Positions 1-42,991 of a stretch of 42,991 nucleotides of DNA are shown piece by piece; within the stretch, counting starts at the first letter, position 1, and every line of letters begins with the position of its first letter. This DNA is from a virus. Both the position numbers and the translations under genes were made by a program. The notes beneath the pieces were generated by a model. The model was not told where the DNA came from, did not search any database, and saw nothing but the letters and a program-made list of their open reading frames with translations. Location: positions 1 through 42,991 of IMG/VR virus record IMGVR_UViG_3300020034_000037; one strand, given 5' to 3'.

Positions 1-127
1 CCAGGCGAGGATCTCGGCTGCGCAGCAGCCGGCCCCGCGGCGAGCGAAGACACACTCCCTTCTTTCTGATCTGCAGAAGCAGAAGCAGAAGCAGAAGCAG
101 AAGCAGAAGCAGAAGCAGAAGCAGAAG
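1..127. repeat. Terminal direct repeat, left copy (contig circularity overlap)
   Basis: Bases 1-127 are identical to bases 42865-42991. An exact 127-base overlap at both ends is what a k=127 de Bruijn assembler leaves on a circular contig, so this is probably one locus written twice rather than a biological terminal repeat. One reading frame (the replisome organizer) continues perfectly through the join, which supports circularity. Confidence 0.93.
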
Positions 128-518
128 GGGGGTTTTCGGAAACCCCCACGAGGCCCCCTGCAGGGGGTTCCCTTGGACGCCCGCCCTTGGCTCCGTGCGG
201 CGCGCCCAACTTCCCGTACTTCCCGTTCTTTCGGAGACGCGTGAGCCACTCGATGCGCCCACGCGTGCCGCGAATGCGCACGCCGTTTGGCGCTTCGTCA
301 CCGAGTTCTGCATCGATGACATGACGCGCGCCGCCCGCGCCGAACACGTGCTCGACGTATTCGATCGGCAGCACGTAACGCTGCTCGGTCAGGCACTGCC
401 GCCAGAGGTGTTCCATCTTCCCCCGGGCGTGGTCGGCGTCGGCCAGGCCGGCGAGCTTCGCCAGGCGGACATAGCGGAAGTCGCCGAACGCCTCGTCCTC
501 GACGCGGATGGCGGCCAC
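1..518 (-). CDS. Replisome organizer / replication initiator, N-terminal part (gene continues at 42991-42471)
   Basis: The N-terminal half of a 303-aa replication protein whose gene crosses the circle junction: 518 down to 1, equivalent to 42991 at the repeat, then on to 42471. The start is a GTG at 518, overlapping the upstream stop as TAGTG, which suggests translational coupling. Residues 1 to about 85 look like the N-terminal DNA-binding domain of phage replisome organizers (IRVEDEAF...RLAKLAG pattern, then a W-R-x-C motif). A basic GGRPR linker follows, then nine Ser-Ala dipeptides encoded by the hexamer array at 73-126. The C-terminal part carries the conserved phage replication C-terminal domain. 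No stop occurs in this frame between 518 and the junction, and the joined length (912 nt) is a whole number of codons. In relatives this protein binds the origin and loads helicase. No helicase gene was recognised in the window. Confidence 0.85.
   Translation of the reverse strand, partial: MAAIRVEDEAFGDFRYVRLAKLAGLADADHARGKMEHLWRQCLTEQRYVLPIEYVEHVFGAGGARHVIDAELGDEAPNGVRIRGTRGRIEWLTRLRKNGKYGKLGAPHGAKGGRPREPPAGGLVGVSENPPSASASASASASASASASADQKEGSVSSLAAGPAAAQPRSSP
73..126. repeat. Tandem hexanucleotide array (GCAGAA)x9
   Basis: Nine perfect GCAGAA units. On the minus strand they encode (Ser-Ala)9 in frame, in the linker between the two domains of the replisome organizer. The second copy near 42937-42990 is the same array seen through the terminal overlap. 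A six-base unit can gain or lose copies without shifting frame. It could be an origin iteron or unwinding array, a flexible linker, or both. Confidence 0.95.
128..167. other. Pair of perfect palindromes beside the hexamer array; candidate origin structure
   Basis: Bases 128-135 (GGGGGTTT) pair with 140-147 (AAACCCCC) around a TCGG loop. Six bases later, 154-158 (CCCCC) and 163-167 (GGGGG) flank TGCA as a perfect 14-bp palindrome. The block lies inside the replisome organizer gene next to the GCAGAA array. Lambda places its origin in the equivalent interdomain part of gene O, so this is the best origin candidate in the window. That role is inference. Confidence 0.5.
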
Positions 519-730
519 TACCGCGCCTCGCCGATGTACTGCCTCAAGCAGCCACACGAATTGGTCACCGAGCGGGCGAGGTTGTCGGTTCGTACTGTCT
601 TGAATCCGCCGCAATCGCAGCGACAGATCCACATCGATCGCCCGCCATCTACGCGCTTGGCGAATGACACAGCAACCAGACGGCCGAAGCGGCGACCCGT
701 GAGATCGATGCGCTCTCGGGGGCGAGGCAT
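518..730 (-). CDS. Small zinc-binding protein of the phage 'DLTGxRFGRL' type
   Basis: 70 aa from the ATG at 730. The sequence opens MPRPRERIDLTGRRFGRL, a motif common in small phage proteins and at the N-termini of some phage AP2/HNH-type proteins. Cysteines follow as CRCDCGG (near residue 43) and SCGCL (near residue 62), a likely zinc ribbon. The stop TAG overlaps the GTG of the replisome organizer (TAGTG), so the two are probably translated together. The frame is open upstream to 877, but that extension lacks family similarity and crosses the terminator at 795-822. The exact role is unknown; nucleic-acid binding is likely. Confidence 0.7.
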   Translation of the reverse strand: MPRPRERIDLTGRRFGRLVAVSFAKRVDGGRSMWICRCDCGGFKTVRTDNLARSVTNSCGCLRQYIGEAR

Positions 731-794
731 CAGGCCTCGCCGAACGCGTTGACTGAGAAGAACATTCCGACACCCCCCACCCCGCGAAGAAAGA

Positions 795-822
795 GCCCAG
801 CCCGCGGAATTGCGAGCTGGGC
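795..822 (-). terminator. Probable rho-independent terminator after the repressor gene
   Basis: On the minus strand, GCCCAGC pairs with GCTGGGC across a 14-nt loop and is followed by TCTTTCTTC. It lies 60 nt beyond the repressor stop and upstream of the zinc-protein/replisome-organizer genes, so it would separate repressor transcription from the replication operon. Confidence 0.55.
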
Positions 823-882
823 CGCCGGGAGTCACGGCGCGCGACTTGTCCCCGGACAAACCTTGAGAGGCTCGCATGCGAG

Positions 883-1191
883 TTACGGCGAGGAGTTGGA
901 CGTCTGCTTTCCTGGTAAGGATTTGCGCACCTTGCGCCCATGAGACTTTCTCACTACAGTCTCTCTCCTACGCCCAGGAGAACCCCCGATGACCTTCCCC
1001 AGGAACACACCCAGCTCCACGCCGCAGGCCTCCGCGCAGGCCCGGCACATAGAGATGGTGAGGCCCCAGCTGCCGAGCTCGACGTGCCTCACCCACGAGT
1101 CGTCTCTGCCGATCTTGTCGGCCAGCTCTCGCGGGCTCAGCCCAGCTGCGATCCGGAAGTGGCGTACCCGTCTGGCTGAATCTGGAAGCAT
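883..1191 (-). CDS. XRE/Cro-CI family transcriptional repressor (prophage repressor candidate)
   Basis: 102 aa with an HTH_3-type domain at about residues 7-62 (RHFRIAAGLSPRELADKIG, then a recognition-helix region D-D-S-W-V-R-H-V-E) and a short basic C-terminal tail. There is no LexA/CI-like peptidase domain, so induction cannot be by RecA-stimulated self-cleavage of this protein. It is transcribed away from the regulator at 1270. No Shine-Dalgarno precedes the ATG at 1191. Instead a -35 (TTGACA, 1228-1223) and -10 (CATGAT, 1205-1200) place the transcript start at about the ATG, as for lambda cI. An operator palindrome sits in its promoter spacer (1204-1216) and another inside its own 3' end (941-953). 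It is the most likely protein to bind those palindromes. Confidence 0.75.
   Translation of the reverse strand: MLPDSARRVRHFRIAAGLSPRELADKIGRDDSWVRHVELGSWGLTISMCRACAEACGVELGVFLGKVIGGSPGRRRETVVRKSHGRKVRKSLPGKQTSNSSP
941..953. promoter_or_regulatory. Operator palindrome TGAGA-CTT-TCTCA inside the repressor gene
   Basis: A perfect 5+3+5 palindrome matching the other TGAGA-NNN-TCTCA sites. It lies within the repressor coding sequence. On the minus strand it is followed by CATGGG, resembling the -10 position in the switch promoter, but no good -35 precedes it. It could be a looping site, a roadblock or a leftward promoter operator. Confidence 0.6.
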
Positions 1192-2960: not shown

Positions 2961-3190
2961 CCAGAGAGCGCATGCGCTCGGTGAGGGACCTGCTCGCCGA
3001 GGCAAAGCGCCTGATGGGCGCCAGCGAGCTTCACGTCCAGTTCTTCGACGTACCGCGGGACGCGATGAGCACGCTGCTCGTCGAAGGGGCCGCGGTCACC
3101 AACGACGCGCACGGCATGACGGCGGCGATGGACTGGCGCGACGAATCGATCGTGCTCGATGCGTTCAGGGGCCCGGAGGTGGTGGGATGA
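2957..3190 (+). CDS. Small hypothetical protein upstream of recT
   Basis: 77 aa, ATG 2957 in ATGA overlap with the previous stop; its own stop overlaps the recombinase start in the same way. No motif recognised. Translational coupling to the recombination gene is likely. Confidence 0.55.
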
Positions 3191-4023
3191 CGACGACAGC
3201 GAACTTCACAGCTGACCAGATGGAGCTAATCAAGACGACCATCTGTCGGGGTTCCACCGACGACGAGTTCAGGCTGTTCATGACCGTTTGCGGTCGGCTC
3301 GGGCTTGACCCATTCGCTCGCCAGATCTTCCCGGTGAGGCGCTGGGACAGCCAGGCCAACCGCGAGGTTATGTCCATCCAGACCAGCATCGACGGCTACC
3401 GGCTCGTCGCCGAGCGGTCCGGCAAGTACGAGGGCCAGGTTGGGCCGCTGTGGTGCGGCAAGGACGGACAGTGGCGCGACGTGTGGCTCGATAGCGAGCC
3501 GCCCGCGGCAGCCAAGGTCGGCGTCTACCGCAAGAACGCGCGCGAGCCGCTGTGGGCCGTGGCTCGCTGGTCGAGCTACGCGCAGACGAAGAAGGATGGC
3601 TCGCCGACGAGCATATGGAAGCGCATGCCCGACCTCATGCTAGCGAAGTGCGCCGAGTCGCTGGCTCTGCGGAAAGCGTTCCCGGCTGAGCTGAGTGGCG
3701 TCTACACCGCAGAGGAGATGGACCAGGCGCAGGTTTTGGACGCGCGGCTAGAGGCGCCCATCGTCCCCATTCGGCCCGCGCTCGCTCCGCACGAGCAGGT
3801 CATCGACGTCATTGACGAGCAAGGTCCTCCGCCGATCACGCAGACGCTCGAGGAGAAGATCACCGTCGCGGCCTCGCTCGAGGGCCTGGGCAAGCTCCTG
3901 CCCGAGTTGAGGGCGGTGAAGGACGAAGCCGACAAGTCGCGCCTGCGCGACGTCTACTCGACGGTGCGCAAGCGCCTCATCGCCGGGTACGCCAGCCAGC
4001 TCAAGGGCGAGGTGCAGTCGTGA
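3187..4023 (+). CDS. bet: RecT/Bet family single-strand annealing recombinase
   Basis: 278 aa, close to family length. The sequence shows the Bet/RecT signature: a start with [16 protein letters not shown], then [17 protein letters not shown], then [22 protein letters not shown] followed by a W-C-x-x-DGxWxDVW stretch. In the family this protein binds single-stranded DNA and anneals homologous strands, working with a 5'-3' exonuclease; the PD-(D/E)XK nuclease at 4816 is its likely partner. Residues after about 180 are less conserved. The start ATG overlaps the previous stop (ATGA). Confidence 0.9.
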
Positions 4024-4655
4024 AGATCCTCAGCCGATGGAACTCGAACACGGTCCTGTTCGAGGACGATAGCCCCACCCAGCGAGAGACCGTGATCGCA
4101 GCGGTCCTGCGCGGCGCCAACCTGCGCGGCGCCAACCTGCGCGACGCCAACCTGCGCGACGCCAACCTGCGCGACGCCAACCTGCGCGACGCCAACCTGA
4201 GCGGCGCCGACCTGAGCGACGCCAACCTGCGCGACGCCAACCTGCGCGACGCCAACCTGAGCGACGCCAACCTGCGCGGCGCCAACCTGCGCGGCGCCAA
4301 CCTGAGCGGCGCCGACCTGAGCGGCGCCAACCTGCGCGACGCCGACCTGCCCACCTTGGTGCGCGTCGAGAATCTGGACCGCAAGATCCTCGGTGCCATC
4401 GAGGCTGGCGGCGCGCTGGAGATGAACACGTGGCACACGTGCAAGACGACGCACTGCCGGGCGGGATGGGCGATCAACCTGGCTGGGCCGGCGGGTGCGG
4501 TCCTGGAGGACATCTACGGGCCCGCGGTCGCCGGCGCGCTGATCTACGCGGCGTCCCGACCGGACAGGCCGATCCCCGACTTCTACGCGACGACCGAGGA
4601 CGCTCTCGCGTCGATCCGCGATGACGCGGCCGAGGACACGGAGGTGCAGTCGTGA
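4020..4655 (+). CDS. Pentapeptide-repeat protein
   Basis: 211 aa from the GTG at 4020 (GTGA overlap with the recombinase). Residues 30-109 are sixteen uninterrupted pentapeptides of the form L-(R/S)-(G/D)-A-(N/D), enough for four coils of a right-handed quadrilateral beta-helix. A C-terminal domain of about 100 aa follows ([15 protein letters not shown]...[15 protein letters not shown]), an arrangement I recall from other phage pentapeptide proteins. Some family members (Qnr, MfpA) mimic DNA and bind gyrase, but nothing here proves that role. The repeat DNA is nearly identical unit to unit, suggesting recent expansion. Confidence 0.85.
4107..4346 (+). repeat. Sixteen 15-bp tandem repeats encoding pentapeptides
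   Basis: Sixteen units close to CTGCGCGACGCCAAC or CTGAGCGGCGCCGAC, with few substitutions and no silent drift. They are in frame, so copy number can change without breaking the gene. Confidence 0.95.
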
Positions 4656-4819
4656 AGACCGACGACGATCGCGACTACAGCGAGGACCCGGTGGTCACCG
4701 AGCGCGACGAGCTGTCGAAGGAGTGCGAGCGGCTGGCCAACGAGAACGCTGAGCTGCGGACCAGGCTCAGCCTCGCGATGCAGGTGATCGACGCCTGCAT
4801 CCCCAAGGGCGACCTGTGA
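4652..4819 (+). CDS. Small coiled-coil protein
   Basis: 55 aa from GTG 4652, overlapping the previous stop (GTGA); its own stop overlaps the next GTG. The middle ([20 protein letters not shown]) has leucine-zipper spacing. It is not recognised. It lies between the pentapeptide protein and the nuclease. Confidence 0.55.
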
Positions 4820-5979
4820 CCTGGACCGCCTCCAACTTCGAGCGCGTCCGCCGATGTCCAGCCAGCGCGGCATTGCCCCAGATCAACTGCACCTCCCAGT
4901 GGGCGCAGGACGGCATCGACGGCCACGCCGCTCTGCAGAAGTTCGTGGAGCTGGTGAGGCAGGGCGAGGATCCGGTCTGCGCCATCCGTGCGGTGCCGAC
5001 GGAGTGGCGTCCAATCTGCGACTCGGTCGCGTACTTGGCCAAGCACCTGCGCTCGGAGCTGGCGTTCGCCTACAACGTCGCCAACGGCGAGGGTCGCGTG
5101 CTTGGCGTCAACCTGGACCGCCAGTACAAGCTCAACGACTGCGAGGTGGCCGGAACCGCCGACCTCGCCGGCACGGTGGAAGGCGTGGCGATCGTCATCG
5201 ATCTCAAGACTGGGTGGGGCGAAGTCACCAGGCCCGACATCAACCCCCAGCTCCGCATCCTGGCCCTGATGGCAGCGCGCGCATGGGGCTGCGACAGAGC
5301 GAAGGTCGCCATCCTCACCGGCCACGAGGGCGCCGAGCCGAGTTGGCGCTGGGCCGAGCTCGAGGCGTGGGACCTGGACGAGGTCGCTGCGCAGGCGGCC
5401 GACACGTTCAACGCCGTGTCCAGGGCGAGAGAGAACATGGTGTTCGGCAGCGAAACCCCGAGCGTCACCGAGGGCTCGTGGTGCAAGTACTGCCCCGCAG
5501 CTCCGGTGTGCCCGGCCAAGACGGCCCTAATCCGTCGCCTCGCCAGCGGCGCTGAGGGTGACGAGCTGGAGATGATGCTGCCGCTGGACCGGCGCACCGC
5601 CGGCATCGCATGGGAGCGTCTGGGCCACGCCAAGCAGCTTCTGAAGCGGGTGGAGGCGGCGTGCCACGCCTACCTCGACGAAGAAGGTCAGATCGACCTG
5701 CCGTCGGGCAAGACGCTCCGCAAGGTCATCACCGAGGGCAACGAGCGCCTCGACGGAGAGGTGGTCTACAGCGTCACCAGGGAGCTGTGCGGCGCGGACA
5801 TCGCCGATGGTGCCGTCGAGCGCAGGGCCACCAAGTCACGGCTGGAGGAAGCGCTGCGCGAGAAGCTGGGACGGGGCGCAGCAGCGCAGATGCGCACCGT
5901 GCTGGACGAGGTGAGGAAGCGCGGAGGCGCGTTGAAGCCGATGACCAAGAAGCTGGTCGAAGTGGACGGTGAGCCGTGA
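4816..5979 (+). CDS. PD-(D/E)XK exonuclease with Fe-S cysteines (RecB/Cas4-like, DUF2800 type)
   Basis: 387 aa from GTG 4816 (GTGA overlap). Nuclease core residues can be read: D116 (GTADLAG), D129 and K131 (VIDLKTG), and a downstream Gln at 145 (NPQLRI). C14 plus C223, C226 and C232 (WCKYCPAAPVCP) form the pattern of the iron-sulfur clamp found in AddB/Cas4-type nucleases. It probably supplies the exonuclease activity that makes single strands for the Bet-like protein at 3187. A C-terminal helical region (260-387) is less conserved. Confidence 0.82.
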   Translation: MTWTASNFERVRRCPASAALPQINCTSQWAQDGIDGHAALQKFVELVRQGEDPVCAIRAVPTEWRPICDSVAYLAKHLRSELAFAYNVANGEGRVLGVNLDRQYKLNDCEVAGTADLAGTVEGVAIVIDLKTGWGEVTRPDINPQLRILALMAARAWGCDRAKVAILTGHEGAEPSWRWAELEAWDLDEVAAQAADTFNAVSRARENMVFGSETPSVTEGSWCKYCPAAPVCPAKTALIRRLASGAEGDELEMMLPLDRRTAGIAWERLGHAKQLLKRVEAACHAYLDEEGQIDLPSGKTLRKVITEGNERLDGEVVYSVTRELCGADIADGAVERRATKSRLEEALREKLGRGAAAQMRTVLDEVRKRGGALKPMTKKLVEVDGEP

Positions 5980-19788: not shown

Positions 19789-22700
19789 TCACCTCATGGC
19801 GCGGCGGATGGCGCCGAACTCGGATTGCTTGCTGGTCTGCATCTTCGGACCGCTAGCGGGCGGCTGAGCGGATTGCATGGCCACGGCGTCCTCGGCGCGG
19901 CGGCGCGCGAGGTACTCGGGGGCCATCGTGTTGTCGAGCGGCACGTCGAAGACGAGGCTGAGCCGGGTCATCATCGGGTACGGCATCGACTTCGGCGCCT
20001 CGGACACCTGCTCGACCAGCTCGTCCTGGATCTGCTGGAAGAAGCGCGGGAACACCTCGCGCAAGGCCAGCGCGGCGACGGGGCTCACCGCACCGATTGC
20101 CAGATCGTGCAGCACGGTCAACGGCTCGGTGGATGCGCGCACCGCGTCGGAGAACCGCTGGAGCTCGGCTGCGTTCGGCCGGTAGGGCACCGGCTTCACG
20201 GTCGGCGGGCGCGGGTCCTTGGGCACCTGCCCAGCCAGCCACCCGAGGCGGTGCACGATGGCGTCGGCGATCGCGCCGGCCAGCGCGGGCGGTGCCGGGA
20301 TGGACTCCAGAATCTGGCGGCGGACCTCCTCGGGGTTGCTGGACACGCGCTCCAGCTCCTCGGCGCGGTCGCGGAACAGCTTCAGCGGGTCCGGCTTGCC
20401 CTTCGGCGCCGGCTCGCCCGAGGGCTTGCGGGCTGGCTTCGCCTCGTCGATCGGGTCCCAGAGCGGGCGAGAGAGGACGCTGGACAGCGCGGCGGACGAC
20501 CGCGTGACCACCGGTGCCGCCTTGTCCGCGCCGCGGACCAGCACCCGCACGGCGGTGGCAGCGCCATCCTGCGCGCTGGCTCCGAGATGAGCGATCCTGG
20601 CCACCGAGCCGGGCAGGCGAATCCCCAGCTTGCCCAGCGCGCCGCTGGCCGCGCGGAACTTCAAATAGGCGCTGAGCAGCGGGCCAACCACAGGGATGTC
20701 CTCGCTGTTGGGCAGGCCAGCCGCGCCGGCCAGGAGGTCCGCGGCGGCCACCGCGTCGCCGGCGCCGCCGCGCTGGCGAACGCCGCCCGGCTCGCCCACC
20801 GCCGACTCGGCGTGGCGGGTCATGACGTCGGTGACGATCTCGTCCTGCTTGCCCACCGCCTCGTCCATGCCCTTCACCGCGTCGTCGAGGGCGGCGCCGG
20901 ACACGTCGTCGAGGTAGGGGCGCACGGCCTGGGCGAGGTCGTAGTGCGCCTGCTCGGCGGCGCGGACCGTCTGGAATCCGTCCTCGAAGTCGGTGGCGGC
21001 CCCGCGCAGGTTCTCCGCGTCCACCGTCTGCTTCGGCAGGATGGAGCGCACCTCGTCGGCCATCGGCGCGCTGTTGAGCGACGATTCGTCCACCGCGCGG
21101 AAGCGCACGAGCACGGGGCGGTCCGTCTCCGCTGCGGCCAAGAGGCGATGATTGCCGTCCGCCACGCCGAGGGCCCCGGACGGGCCCATGTCGATCTCGA
21201 TGGGGGGCATATCCGCGCCCTCGTCCCACCCCTGCTTGATCGATCCGATGCGCTCGGCCCGGGTCTCTGCGGACGGAACGAGGCCGCCCAAGCTGCTGTC
21301 CGCCAGCTCGCTCGGCCGCACGACGTATCCGACCGCTCGATGGTCCTCGGACGAGAGCTGGCGGAACGTGGGAACGCCCTGCTTAATGGATGCGCCCTCG
21401 TCGAAGAGCTTCAGCCCCTGGTTCTCGATCGACGGGTCGAACCCGGGCGCCGCGAGGGCGTCCTCTGCCACCGCGGGCGCGCGCGCCGCCGGCTCGGCCG
21501 GCCCGGTGAACCCGGCCGCCTTCAGGTCATCGAGGTTCTCGGCCTGGAACGCCTTCGCTCCGGCCTGCTTCTCGGCCCAGTCGCTCACCTTCGGGGCCGC
21601 CTTGGCCGCACGGTCGCGCATGAACCGCAGATCCGCAGCCGCGCCGGGGTTGGCCGCCATGATCTCGTCGGCCTGCCGCACGAGGTCGTCGGTGGCGCTG
21701 GCCATCTCGGCCGCGTGGTTGAGGACGCCGCCCTTGGCCGCCTCGACGGCGCGCGCGCTGCGCAGCTTGGCGGGGATCAGCTCCTCGACGAGGTACCCGG
21801 CATCGGGCCGCTTGGAGGCGACCAGCGCATCGGCCAGCCCGGTGCGGATCTTGGCGTCGGCCGTGACCCCGGCCGCCTCCAGCTTGCTCCCCGCCACCGC
21901 CTCGCGGCTCTCCGCCGCCTTGCGCCAGCCGGAGGTGTACGTCTCCGAGAGCTGTATGCGGCCGTCCATGACCAGCCTGGCGCGCTCCAGCTTGGCCTGC
22001 TCGACGGCGAGGGCGTCGCCCACCTTCGACACCTTCGCCTTGGCGACTGCCGCCTTGGCCTCGGCCTTGGCCAACTCGGCCTGGAGCCGCGTGTCGGCGA
22101 TCTTCAGGCGCGCCCCGGCGCCCACCTCGGCCAGGTCCTTCTTTCCGCCCAGGCGGTACTCTTCCAGCTTCAGTTTCTGCTCGGCGGAGAACGCGGTCTG
22201 CTCCTGAGCCGTCGCTCCGCGCGCCTCCACCAGCTCCAGCTTGCCCCTCTGCTTCAGCTCCTCCAGCCCGGCTCGGTTGAGATGCCGCTCCTGCTCGATC
22301 CGCAGACGGTCGGCCAGCCGCTGCTCGCGCTGCGCCTCCTTGATGGCGATCTTGTGCTCGGCCTGGAGGGTCGTCAGCTCCTTCGAGCTCGACGCCATGC
22401 TGTCCAGCTTCCCGCGGGCAGCGGAGGCCCCGCGGCTGAACAGCGTGGCTCCTGCGCCCGTCAGACCGCCCCAGAGCGCGCCCTGGCCGGCCCCGGCCAG
22501 GAACGTCTCCGCGCTCAGCTCCTTGTCCTGTAGGACGCTCTCGCTCAGCACGTGGCCGGCCCCGTAGAGCGCGCCCTCGACGGCGTAACCAGCCCCCGCG
22601 GCGGCGGCGCCCTCGATCAGCCCGCCCGCGCGACCCGCCTTGACGACGAGGTCCCCGGCCCTGCTAGCCAGCCCGGCTGGCGAGAGCCGCGCCGCGGTCC

Positions 22701-36352: not shown

Positions 36353-36591
36353 GCGCCGTCGTCCTCGGAGTCGGTGTCCATGTCCGTGTAGGGGATCCCA
36401 TAGGACCGGGCAAACGCCTCGTGCGCGCTGCGCGGTTCCGGCTTGGGAGGCGCAGTGCTTCCGTCGATGACGAGGTCGTCCAGCTCCAGCTTCACCGATC
36501 CGGCGTCCGCCTCGATGCTGCGCACGCGATAACCGTGCGCGCGCAACGAGAGCAGCACCTCCACGATCGTGGCCTGCTGCTCCCTAGTCAT
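36349..36591 (-). CDS. Small protein between terminase and portal
   Basis: 80 aa from ATG 36591, overlapping the terminase end by 8 nt and the portal start by ATGA. It begins MTREQQATIVEVLLSLRAHGYRVRSIEADAG and ends acidic (DMDTDSEDDGA). No family recognised. Confidence 0.55.
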   Translation of the reverse strand: MTREQQATIVEVLLSLRAHGYRVRSIEADAGSVKLELDDLVIDGSTAPPKPEPRSAHEAFARSYGIPYTDMDTDSEDDGA

Positions 36592-38176
36592 AATACGAAG
36601 TTGCCTCCCGCTCGAGCTCGTCGAGGTCGGCCTGTTCCATGGCCTGCTCCAGCGCGACGTAGTACTCGGTCGAGCCTGCCGGTGGCTTGGGCACGGGCCT
36701 CTGCGCCAGATGCGCGAAGGTGTGGCGATGGCCGTAGAGCCCACCGTCGGTGATGTCGTTGGGGATGACCGGATCCTCCTTCATCTTTCCGGCCCCGGCG
36801 TGCGGCAGCCAGCGCACACGCTTCATCTGCTCGTGCAGCGGGCTGCCCTTGCGTAGCTTGATGCGGCCCTGGCGCAGGTCGGTGTTGAACAGCTGGATCG
36901 AGTCGAACTTGTGACTCTTCTCGGCCTCGATCATGTCGTAGCCGAACCGCTCGTTCCACCGCTTGCTCCAGCCCTTGCCCATGGGCGTGGCCACGCCGCC
37001 GATGTCGCCGGTGACGATGCTGATTGGCACCTGCCCAGCGACGTCAGTGAGCACGCTGAGCTGCTCATCCGAGTCGAGCTGCGTCTTGGCCCAGCTCGCC
37101 ACCTCGAGCAGCTCGTCCCATTCCCAGCTCCATGCCCACAGCACGTAGGCGAAGGGGTCGGGTAGGAAGCCGAGGTCACAGCCGAGGGTGAAGCGCCAAT
37201 CCGGCCCCTCCGGCAGGTCCGCCAGCGCGGCGATGAAGTCGGGCACACCGCCCTCAAGGAACAGCGGCCGTCCGTTCTTATCCTTGCGCCAGACCGGCGG
37301 CGCCTTCCAGCGCGGCGGCGCGTAGCACACCTGATGCTCGGGCACCTGGTGGATGGCGTAGGTGAAGCGCGCGTCCTCCTTGACCCAGCGGGCGAACCAC
37401 TCGCGCTGCACCTCGGGTGCATCGAGGGGCAGCCCCTGCTCGCGGCAGTACCGCGCCACGGTGCGCTCGAAGCGCTCCTCTGGTGTGGTGCCGAAGAACG
37501 GGTTGGACAGCACGTTCAGCACGTGGACGGACCAGCCGTGAAGCGGCTCCTCCTCGTTGGTCACGTCGTAGAACAGGCCAGCGAGGTCCACGCCCGGCGT
37601 GCCGGGCATGAAGATCTGGCCACCGTGGTCCATCATGGCCGGCCCCAGCGAGTCACGGATGAGCTCGGTGAGGTGGGGTGCCTTCTGCGCCTCGTCGATG
37701 ACCACGAGATGCGGGGCGATGCCGCGGAGCTTCCCGATCTGGCGCATGTCGTCGGCGCCGACCAGGCGGATGATGCCGCCGCCGGGGAAGCTGAGCGTGT
37801 GCTTGGAATGGTTGGGCAACCCGCCGAGTTGGTATTGCTCGTTGAGCGTGAGCAGCCCATCGCGGCCGTTGCCCACCCATGCGATCGCCTCGCACTCGGG
37901 CAGCGTCTCGTTGACGTAGATGACGCGCGCGTGGGGGACGCGCACGGCGACGTCCAGCATCTTGCGGATGAACGACCGGCTCTTGCCTGAACGCCTCGTA
38001 CCGCGCACCGCAACGAGCGGAGCGGGGTCGTCGATGCATGCCCTGGCCTCGGGGTGGATGTCGTCGAGGCAGGCGCGCAGCCGAAGGAGCACGCCGTCAT
38101 CGAGCTGCGGGCGCGCTGCCTCCCGCCGAGCTTGCTCAGCGAGGAGGGCATCGAGGCTGTGCAGCGGCGCGCCCAC
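36584..38176 (-). CDS. Terminase large subunit
   Basis: 530 aa from GTG 38176. Walker A GTRRSGKS (residues 59-66), Walker B LVVIDE (157-162) and a nuclease aspartate D334 in TLGCDLGF mark ATPase and RNase H-like nuclease domains. It cuts and pumps concatemeric DNA into procapsids through the portal. No Shine-Dalgarno is obvious. It follows a run of small genes, among which a small terminase subunit should be sought. Confidence 0.92.
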   Translation of the reverse strand: MGAPLHSLDALLAEQARREAARPQLDDGVLLRLRACLDDIHPEARACIDDPAPLVAVRGTRRSGKSRSFIRKMLDVAVRVPHARVIYVNETLPECEAIAWVGNGRDGLLTLNEQYQLGGLPNHSKHTLSFPGGGIIRLVGADDMRQIGKLRGIAPHLVVIDEAQKAPHLTELIRDSLGPAMMDHGGQIFMPGTPGVDLAGLFYDVTNEEEPLHGWSVHVLNVLSNPFFGTTPEERFERTVARYCREQGLPLDAPEVQREWFARWVKEDARFTYAIHQVPEHQVCYAPPRWKAPPVWRKDKNGRPLFLEGGVPDFIAALADLPEGPDWRFTLGCDLGFLPDPFAYVLWAWSWEWDELLEVASWAKTQLDSDEQLSVLTDVAGQVPISIVTGDIGGVATPMGKGWSKRWNERFGYDMIEAEKSHKFDSIQLFNTDLRQGRIKLRKGSPLHEQMKRVRWLPHAGAGKMKEDPVIPNDITDGGLYGHRHTFAHLAQRPVPKPPAGSTEYYVALEQAMEQADLDELEREATSYYD

Positions 38177-42004: not shown

Positions 42005-42474
42005 TGCCCCCCCCTTGCGCGCCCCTTGTCGGCCCCATCCCGACGGCGGCGCATGATGGTCTCCATGCCGTCGGCCGTGTCGCTGTAGCCGTTGCGACGC
42101 AGCCAGTCGAACTGCTCCTGGTTCAGGTCACGCCCGTCTTTCACCTGGCGGATGACGATGCCGACCTGCTCGGCCAGGCGCATCGCCGTGTTGCCCTTGC
42201 GCTGCTCCCACACCACCGCGCATGGTCTGCACATCGTGAGCTCGCCGTCCTCGATGGGGCGCTCGCCACGGCGTCGCAGGACGCCCTCGCTCAGCTGCCT
42301 GGCAATCTCGAGCACCCACGGCGACACCTCTACGCCAGCACCGCATTCGCGGCAGGGGACGACCCGGCCCTCGCCGGCAACGTGCTCGCCGAGGCGAAGA
42401 GCCTTGCCTGATCGCTCTCCGTCGTTTCGCGCGGCCGCGCGGCGCTCCTCGAGCAGCTCGTCGTCATCGCTCAT
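42001..42474 (-). CDS. Zinc-finger-like protein downstream of the replisome organizer
   Basis: 157 aa from ATG 42474 (ATGA overlap). PCRECGAGVEV and MCRPCAVVW supply CxxC pairs about 40 residues apart, a likely zinc site. The C-terminal half is helical and basic. Unknown role, probably nucleic-acid related by context. Confidence 0.55.
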   Translation of the reverse strand: MSDDDELLEERRAAARNDGERSGKALRLGEHVAGEGRVVPCRECGAGVEVSPWVLEIARQLSEGVLRRRGERPIEDGELTMCRPCAVVWEQRKGNTAMRLAEQVGIVIRQVKDGRDLNQEQFDWLRRNGYSDTADGMETIMRRRRDGADKGRARGGQ

Positions 42475-42991
42475 CGGTCCCTTCCCCCGTCGCCCAAGAG
42501 GTGCAGACGAAACTCCGAATCGGGCATCACGTTGGGCTTGTGCCCGTTGACCTTGACCAGCGCGGCATCAGCAGCGAGCGCCTGCGCGAGGTAGTCGGCG
42601 AACTTCTCCGGCCCGAACAACGTAGCGGGCCGGAGGTACTGGTCCATCTTCGGGTCCTCAGCCCACTCGTTCGCTCGGTCCCAAACGACCTTGCGCAGGT
42701 CCATCTCGCTGTGCCCGCCGCGTAGGAGGCGGAGGATGAGACGCGCGTGGGTCGGTGTGGTCGGCCGGTAGACGCGCCCGCTGCGCTCACTCAGCTTGCC
42801 CAGGATGGCGGCAATGGACGCCGCCTCGGAAGCGGTTGGGTCGCTCGGCTTCGCCTTCTTCCGACCAGGCGAGGATCTCGGCTGCGCAGCAGCCGGCCCC
42901 GCGGCGAGCGAAGACACACTCCCTTCTTTCTGATCTGCAGAAGCAGAAGCAGAAGCAGAAGCAGAAGCAGAAGCAGAAGCAGAAGCAGAAG
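42471..42991 (-). CDS. Replisome organizer, C-terminal part (continues from 518 across the junction)
   Basis: C-terminal part of the gene that begins at 518. After (Ser-Ala)9 and a basic spacer, LSERSGRVYRPTTPTHARLILRLLRGG...VWDRANEWAEDPKMDQYLRPATLFG matches the conserved phage replication C-terminal domain (Phg_2220_C type). A GTG at 42917 could start a shorter product, but the frame is open through the junction to the coupled start at 518. The stop overlaps the next start (ATGA). Confidence 0.87.
   Translation of the reverse strand, partial: SASASASASASASASASADQKEGSVSSLAAGPAAAQPRSSPGRKKAKPSDPTASEAASIAAILGKLSERSGRVYRPTTPTHARLILRLLRGGHSEMDLRKVVWDRANEWAEDPKMDQYLRPATLFGPEKFADYLAQALAADAALVKVNGHKPNVMPDSEFRLHLLGDGGRDR
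42865..42991. repeat. Terminal direct repeat, right copy
   Basis: Identical to bases 1-127; see the left copy. It should be removed once to give the circular genome of about 42,864 bp. Confidence 0.93.

Follow-up and report, generated by a model that had tools for sequence, protein, structure and literature searches.

Replication origins have been mapped in few phages. In lambda, an AT-rich tract is crucial for unwinding and the initiator O binds single strands (PMC7466680). The annotated lambda record places four iterons in O, followed by a purine-rich tract. The origin oriL of phage SPP1 lies within gene 38, the gene of the origin-binding protein, and combines direct repeats with an AT-rich unwinding element; the DnaA-trio or basal unwinding system of bacterial oriC places short strand-specific repeats by the initiator boxes, where they hold single-stranded DNA; and the iteron plasmids RK2 and F have iterons beside repeated DUE sequences, one strand of which is bound by Rep (PMC8508860, PMC10797057, PMC7466680, PMC12429752, PMC6316719).

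The window, by which we mean the whole stretch of 42,991 nucleotides analysed here (IMG/VR virus record IMGVR_UViG_3300020034_000037), probably carries an intragenic origin of the lambda type, in which a tandem hexamer array within the initiator gene would act as an unwinding or strand-specific loading element and not as a set of iterons. The DNA belongs to a tailed phage, since it encodes a terminase large subunit (36584-38176) and contains a tail-fibre match. Exact comparison of the contig ends showed that bases 1-127 equal bases 42865-42991, and because these ends are identical the contig represents a circle of 42864 bp that was cut at the array. The initiator locus comprises the following features:

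3 to 941, minus strand: initiator gene, N-terminal part and linker (longest ORF, from ATG 941)
15 to 31: hairpin with 7-bp arms (15-21 and 25-31) on the C-terminal side of the array; also in some relatives
73 to 127, unstranded: array (GCAGAA)9.2, from a tandem-repeat search at 100% match; the minus, coding strand reads (TTCTGC)9 and gives (Ser-Ala)9
128 to 147: 8-bp inverted repeat with a 4-nt centre, abutting the array on the N-side and holding two AACCCCC/GGGGGTT copies (128-134 and 141-147)
154 to 167: perfect 14-bp palindrome, overlapped in its right half by a third GGGGGTT (163-169)
209 to 230: 9-bp direct repeat ACTTCCCGT, 2.4 copies, an alternative iteron candidate that is not significant as an 8-mer
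42471 to 42991, minus strand: remainder of the initiator gene past the contig junction, including the stop codon (ORF)
42588 to 42806, minus strand: C-terminal domain Phg_2220_C / PHROG 428 replication initiation protein (aa 334-406), from profile matches
42937 to 42991: copy of the array at the contig end, an assembly overlap and not a second genomic array, from the exact 127-bp terminal overlap

The initiator is encoded by a minus-strand ORF of at most 444 aa that starts at ATG 941, traverses the array, and ends beyond the contig junction at 42471; GTG 773 and GTG 632 are other possible in-frame starts. Its C-terminus matched PF09524 (Phg_2220_C) with an E value of 2e-17 and 63.4 bits, above the curated cut-off of 27 that places it among the Phg_2220_C replication initiators, and matched PHROG 428, a replication initiation protein, at 1.2e-16. 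The predicted structure of the N-terminal part was too poor to use (pLDDT 39). Forty-eight phage records matched the protein in part, none over more than 80% of its length, and all of the 20 matches listed lay in the C-terminal half. Pattern matching returned 9 stretches in viral contigs and 189 in genome contigs, none of which was confirmed as a relative of the window initiator, and no similarity of this protein to lambda O was seen.

Elsewhere in the window, RecT is encoded at 3187-4023 and a PDDEXK exonuclease at 4816-5979. Directly behind recT, a pentapeptide-repeat protein gene (4020-4655) contains 16 copies of a 15-bp repeat (4106-4350), which is an ordinary protein repeat and no origin candidate. 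A 19-nt repeat containing ATGAGA...TCTCA dyads occurs four times (68-100%), at 858-876, 935-953, 1198-1216, and 2029-2047, around a small minus-strand gene (883-1191) resembling a helix-turn-helix repressor; these copies are probably operators of a lysogeny switch.

The (GCAGAA)9 array encoding (Ser-Ala)9 that the preliminary description had reported was confirmed: it is perfect at 73-127 and reads TCT GCT on the minus strand. It is the only tandem run of the GCAGAA unit in the circle, and it is present here in the antisense form. No 55-bp stretch of the genome is more purine-asymmetric, and only 0.6% of the 55-bp windows of the circle are less stable, so that it lies below 99.4% of them; with a GC content of 50%, against about 69% for the genome, it is not AT-rich in absolute terms. 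The detrended GC skew, which had been proposed as a check on the origin, has its minimum at 1658 and its maximum at 20495, with a range of 408, where 95% of block shuffles stayed below 372. The minimum lies near the array on the circle, which is mildly in favour of an origin there, but a switch in gene direction is also near and confounds this result.

The two sequences beside the array that had been described as perfect palindromes fared differently. The one at 154-167, CCCCCTGCAGGGGG, was verified as such, while 128-147 is actually an inverted repeat, GGGGGTTT/AAACCCCC flanking TCGG, whose hairpin was equalled in about 8% of shuffles of the 75 bp on the N-side of the array. Neither is kept as such in relatives. 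For the hairpin at 15-31, about 1% of shuffles were as good. The three AACCCCC copies reached a p value of about 0.03 as a 7-mer and were not significant as 5-, 6-, or 8-mers. At 7 other loci AACCCCC lies no more than 20 bp from (TTCTGC)2, but by ORF reading none of the 7 was an initiator, so that AACCCCC stays no more than an iteron candidate.

When 2.9 million viral contigs were searched for exact (GCAGAA)5, 97 stretches were obtained, and their ORFs were grouped by blastp with the arrays masked. One initiator superfamily takes 40 of the 97 loci; the synonymous-alanine control (GCBGAA)5 places 1 of its 118 loci there, and the composition-matched control (GACGAA)5 places 1 of its 113. Four more similar loci (L086, L087, L094, and L096) raise the 40 to 44. 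In PHROG, these 44 match mainly replication initiation, O-like, DnaD-like loader or primosomal families; in Pfam, 3 match HTH_36, 1 matches Phg_2220_C, and 1 matches Phage_rep_org_N. The array is sense in 36 and antisense in 8, so that one DNA repeat encodes either (Ala-Glu)n or (Ser-Ala)n. The same layout is found in the isolates Sinorhizobium phage phiLM21 (gp32) and Pseudanabaena phage Pam1 (gp56). Of the other 53 ORFs, 51 were scanned, with L033 (on the same contig as L026, of which it is the second half) and the very long ORF L079 set aside; among the 51 are a few more loaders and replisome organizers. The deduplicated control ORFs contained two replication initiation families with 2 members each (n=93), and replication initiation was absent among the 25 families listed (n=101). 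Among bacterial genomes, (GCAGAA)5 was present in 6 of 369 (class of the Thermomonas locus; 1 of 369 for the backward-read control), none of the 6 having it in an initiator by blastp, and (CCAGAAG)4 in none of 385 (class of the Novosphingobium locus). As the association between array and initiator was unseen in those bacterial-genome samples, it is a phage trait.

Initiators were also collected by their N-terminal domains. Eighteen array-free N-terminal domains (A3 set) led to 437 viral-contig relatives, from which the best 80 were taken, and to 15 relatives in bacterial genomes, two of them on one contig; four N-domain sequences (A4 set) led to 101 relatives, of which 80 were retained. A model of the N-domain of the A3 relatives (pLDDT 82) had the helix/strand order of a winged helix; its best PDB match had an E value of 0.06, and comparison with PDB structures gave zero matches at E 0.001. 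GCAGAA is the commonest tandem hexamer in the A3 set, occurring in 27 of the best 80 of the 437 viral relatives and at 8 of the 15 bacterial-genome loci, with a longest array of 90 bp, and is followed in the same best 80 by GCAGAG (7/80) and GCAAAA (6/80). Antisense examples are rarer, and the antisense form, which is that of the window, was found in no gene of the A3 set (best 80 of 437 viral plus 15 bacterial-genome relatives). Among the 80 A4 relatives retained of 101, 5 contain GCAGAA and 2 TTCTGC, and many more contain other short repeats. The longest GCAGAA array among the bacterial-genome loci, up to 90 bp, is that of L417, a Phycisphaerae MAG contig. In four low-GC initiators of the A4 type (L468, L475, L489, and L493), TGAATA-like 6-nt repeats replace GCAGAA, and the repeat unit seems to track genome composition.

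A test blind to the repeat unit, in which at least 17 of 20 bases had to be equal at lag 6 or 7 (lags 4-12 were scanned), detected a period-6/7 tract in the linkers of 39 of 76 A3 genes (from the best 80 of 437) and 31 of 64 A4 genes (from 80 of 101), after exclusion of 3 of 79 and 2 of 66 nonredundant genes, respectively, for short linkers. The control stretches contained no such tract, neither those from the N-domains of these genes (0 of 140) nor those from the adjacent next gene (0 of 131). Roughly half of the relatives have no clear period-6/7 tract. Because the query families came from array-bearing loci, the N-domain sample is not bias-free, and relatives may have arrays by descent. The preliminary description had put its candidate origin in the interdomain linker of the initiator gene, at the site equivalent to that in lambda O. 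This placement of a putative origin is well supported by the relatives.

Several features of the tracts concern the DNA and not the protein. The A3 tract follows the pattern NCANNN: CA at codon positions 2-3, once per 6 nt, tops 48 dinucleotide-by-phase classes, and runs of five or more in this phase occur in 47 of 79 A3 genes. When tracts were located by amino acids only, as was possible in 71 of 79 A3 genes, A was the third base of 75% of 448 NCN codons within the tract and of 22.6% of 5170 outside. After removal of the genes containing (GCAGAA)2, the values were 76% of 274 and 23% of 3431, with a varying first base, and this pattern means that slippage of one pure unit is insufficient as a cause. 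In the A4 set the preference for A is weaker (35% versus 21%) and T is raised too, as expected if both strands serve. The only 7-nt unit scanned, (CCAGAAG)4, was found at 34 loci, 32 of them in ORFs matching the initiator set and all of these in the sense orientation (four of the 32 contigs already belonged to that set); these arrays preserve no reading frame and traverse all three. The other two loci are L514 and L520. In L520, around 404-430, (CCAGAAG)n with altered neighbours (CTAGAAG, CTACAAG) is spanned by short ORFs of 64-67 aa only, and is perhaps an origin outside a gene.

From these comparisons, we regard it as close to certain that the short tandem repeats of the initiator superfamily are a DNA element. 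The wobble A, the 7-nt arrays running through all frames, and the occurrence on either strand point to selection on the DNA, and the presence of GCAGAA-type repeats at the matching place in many different initiator genes suggests a part of a DNA start site, beyond a protein linker. A selectively neutral microsatellite that encodes a flexible linker, in which slippage yields (AE)n or (SA)n and the DNA is unselected, would account for hexamers that are pure and in frame, for copy numbers that differ between relatives and probably also within the population, and for arrays in non-initiator genes, such as many of the 51 other ORFs and those of the 6 bacterial genomes. We consider it unlikely, because synonymous and composition-matched hexamers do not share the preference for the initiator linker, the wobble A is retained though codon base 1 varies, the 7-nt arrays break codon periodicity, and iterons adjoin the array.

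The copy number of the array varies between related loci, and at L052 at least 21 copies of GCAGAA reach the end of the stretch examined. The 127-bp overlap of the window ends at the last base that one more repeat (continuing with c) and the exit from the array (continuing with g) have in common, and 127 would be the expected leftover of an assembler with a word length of 127. A second contig, IMGVR_UViG_3300011438_000021 (L026/L033), has a 58-base end overlap that likewise stops at the array exit. Two circular contigs cut at this point suggest that the reads probably differ in copy number, in agreement with the freedom of copy number proposed earlier, although PCR or sequencing slippage could also produce such breaks.

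In many loci, short repeats lie on the N-side of the array (GTAACG, GTCAGC, TGTTCG, GTCGAC, AAGCAA, TTCAAC, and others). Repeated 6-mers within 90 bp (p<=0.02 in dinucleotide shuffles) were found on the N-side of 25 of 60 nonredundant sites and on the C-side of 2 of 60. These iterons of the relatives are phage-specific, have a spacing of roughly 10 bp, and stand beside the array, which is itself moderately less stable than the remaining gene (median, 22% of positions less stable). They bear directly on the earlier suggestion that the hexamers are the iterons, bound double-stranded by the N-terminal domain of the initiator. Tandem repeats within the initiator gene, as in lambda, and the lack of other clear iterons in the window agree with that suggestion; we hold it to be very unlikely, since one hexamer is common to different N-domains (A3, A4, and others) and separate iterons adjoin the array on its N-terminal side. 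Moreover, sites spaced by 6 or 7 bp fall successively on alternating faces of the helix, which counts against binding of this kind. With separate iterons and an array common to quite different initiators, the array looks like a second element, similar to the AT-rich tract of lambda. In a small table of array strand against iteron type, CCAACC accompanied antisense arrays in 4 of 4 cases and GTCACG/GTAACG sense arrays in 3 of 3, and GGTTAA/TTAACC was mixed; with so few cases, a link between strand and iteron type is no more than a lead.

On the C-side, a hairpin within 75 bp (p<=0.05) was found at 26 of 110 sites, compared with 4 of 107 further downstream and 18 of 110 on the N-side. As a candidate for a fixed third origin element the hairpin was rejected: it is enriched, yet significant in a minority of sites. 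Some pairs of loci (L370/L375, L009/L054, and L356/L369) have similar DNA on the N-side and dissimilar DNA on the C-side, and initiators may exchange C-terminal domains by crossing over at the array. The hairpin enrichment, and like N-flanks with unlike C-flanks in L370/L375 and L009/L054, would also suit a different DNA element, such as a priming or primosome site with a C-side hairpin, a pause or terminator, or a recombination junction for the C-terminal domain. Such an element seems improbable to us, as an origin accounts better for the iterons that regularly accompany the array and for its concentration in initiator genes, and most sites lack a significant hairpin.

For the origin that we favour, we propose the following sequence of events. 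The N-terminal domain of the initiator would bind phage-specific iterons just upstream of the linker; such iterons are evident in relatives but not clearly so in the window. The tandem, strand-asymmetric tract of 6- or 7-nt units (GCAGAA, CCAGAAG, or their complements) adjoins them on the side encoding the C-terminal domain, in place of the AT-rich tract of lambda, and assembly of the initiator on the iterons would open it. The strand with the CA/CAGAA motif may then be held by the initiator or a helicase loader, and the replicative helicase would be loaded at the tract through the C-terminal domain of the initiator. Because the tract is also translated, a 6-nt unit yields an (Ala-Glu)n or (Ser-Ala)n linker, and a 7-nt unit yields repeats read in all three frames. 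From lambda, the place beside iterons, and the strand asymmetry, we infer that the array could serve as a platform for opening or loading; its location, conservation, constraint at the DNA level, and iteron neighbourhood are observed in the genes compared, and unwinding and loading are its putative functions.

A broader reading, which we offer tentatively and would not count on, is that tandem 6-/7-nt CA(GAA)-type repeats constitute a widespread unnamed origin element, a sequence-specific single-strand platform for helicase loading common to different initiators and iterons, possibly through a conserved partner such as the host helicase, loader or primase, with the strand set by the type of iteron or initiator and with the element as a crossover point for the C-terminal domain. 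One short repeat beside different iterons and initiators raises the question of a common partner that reads it. If the element marks origins, those of very many uncultured phages could be read from sequence, and initiator, iterons, and opening site would stand together in one gene. As the same DNA would be both code and origin, strand-specific helicase loading is testable by synonymous recoding. For annotation, low-complexity (Ala-Glu)n, (Ser-Ala)n, and PEARSQK linkers call for caution, being probably by-products of a DNA function.

No published description of a 6-/7-nt tandem element of this kind was found in the literature searched, in which subscription journals are sparsely covered. A search for the literal GCAGAAGCAGAAGCAGAA returned only plant papers, judging by titles and abstracts, and a search for CCAGAAGCCAGAAG returned nothing. 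The element departs from the tracts of lambda and SPP1 in that it is a tandem 6-7-nt repeat common to different initiators.

Our findings place the proposed origin closest to the lambda ori in gene O, and to those of the Stx phages P27 and 933W: in each case it lies in the middle of the initiator gene, with iterons followed by a strand-asymmetric tract on the C-terminal side. Unlike lambda, which has 18-bp iterons and an AT-rich tract, the phages studied here have 6-7-nt tandem CA/CAGAA repeats of 50-57% GC on either strand, the C-terminal domain in the window is Phg_2220_C, and the tract is common to different initiators. The likeness to oriL of SPP1 consists in repeats and an unwinding element inside the gene of the origin-binding protein, and in the available part of the SPP1 literature that element is AT-rich, with no 6-7-nt tandem repeat described. 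The DnaA-trio differs in having 3-nt units, [G/A]AT, next to DnaA boxes and bound by DnaA, whereas the units here are 6-7 nt long, lie in phage genes, and have a putative role in single-strand binding. The DUE repeats of RK2 and F lie outside the rep gene. As in these plasmids, iterons here stand beside a repeated tract; their DUE repeats are T-rich, in contrast to the tract described here, which lies inside coding sequence.
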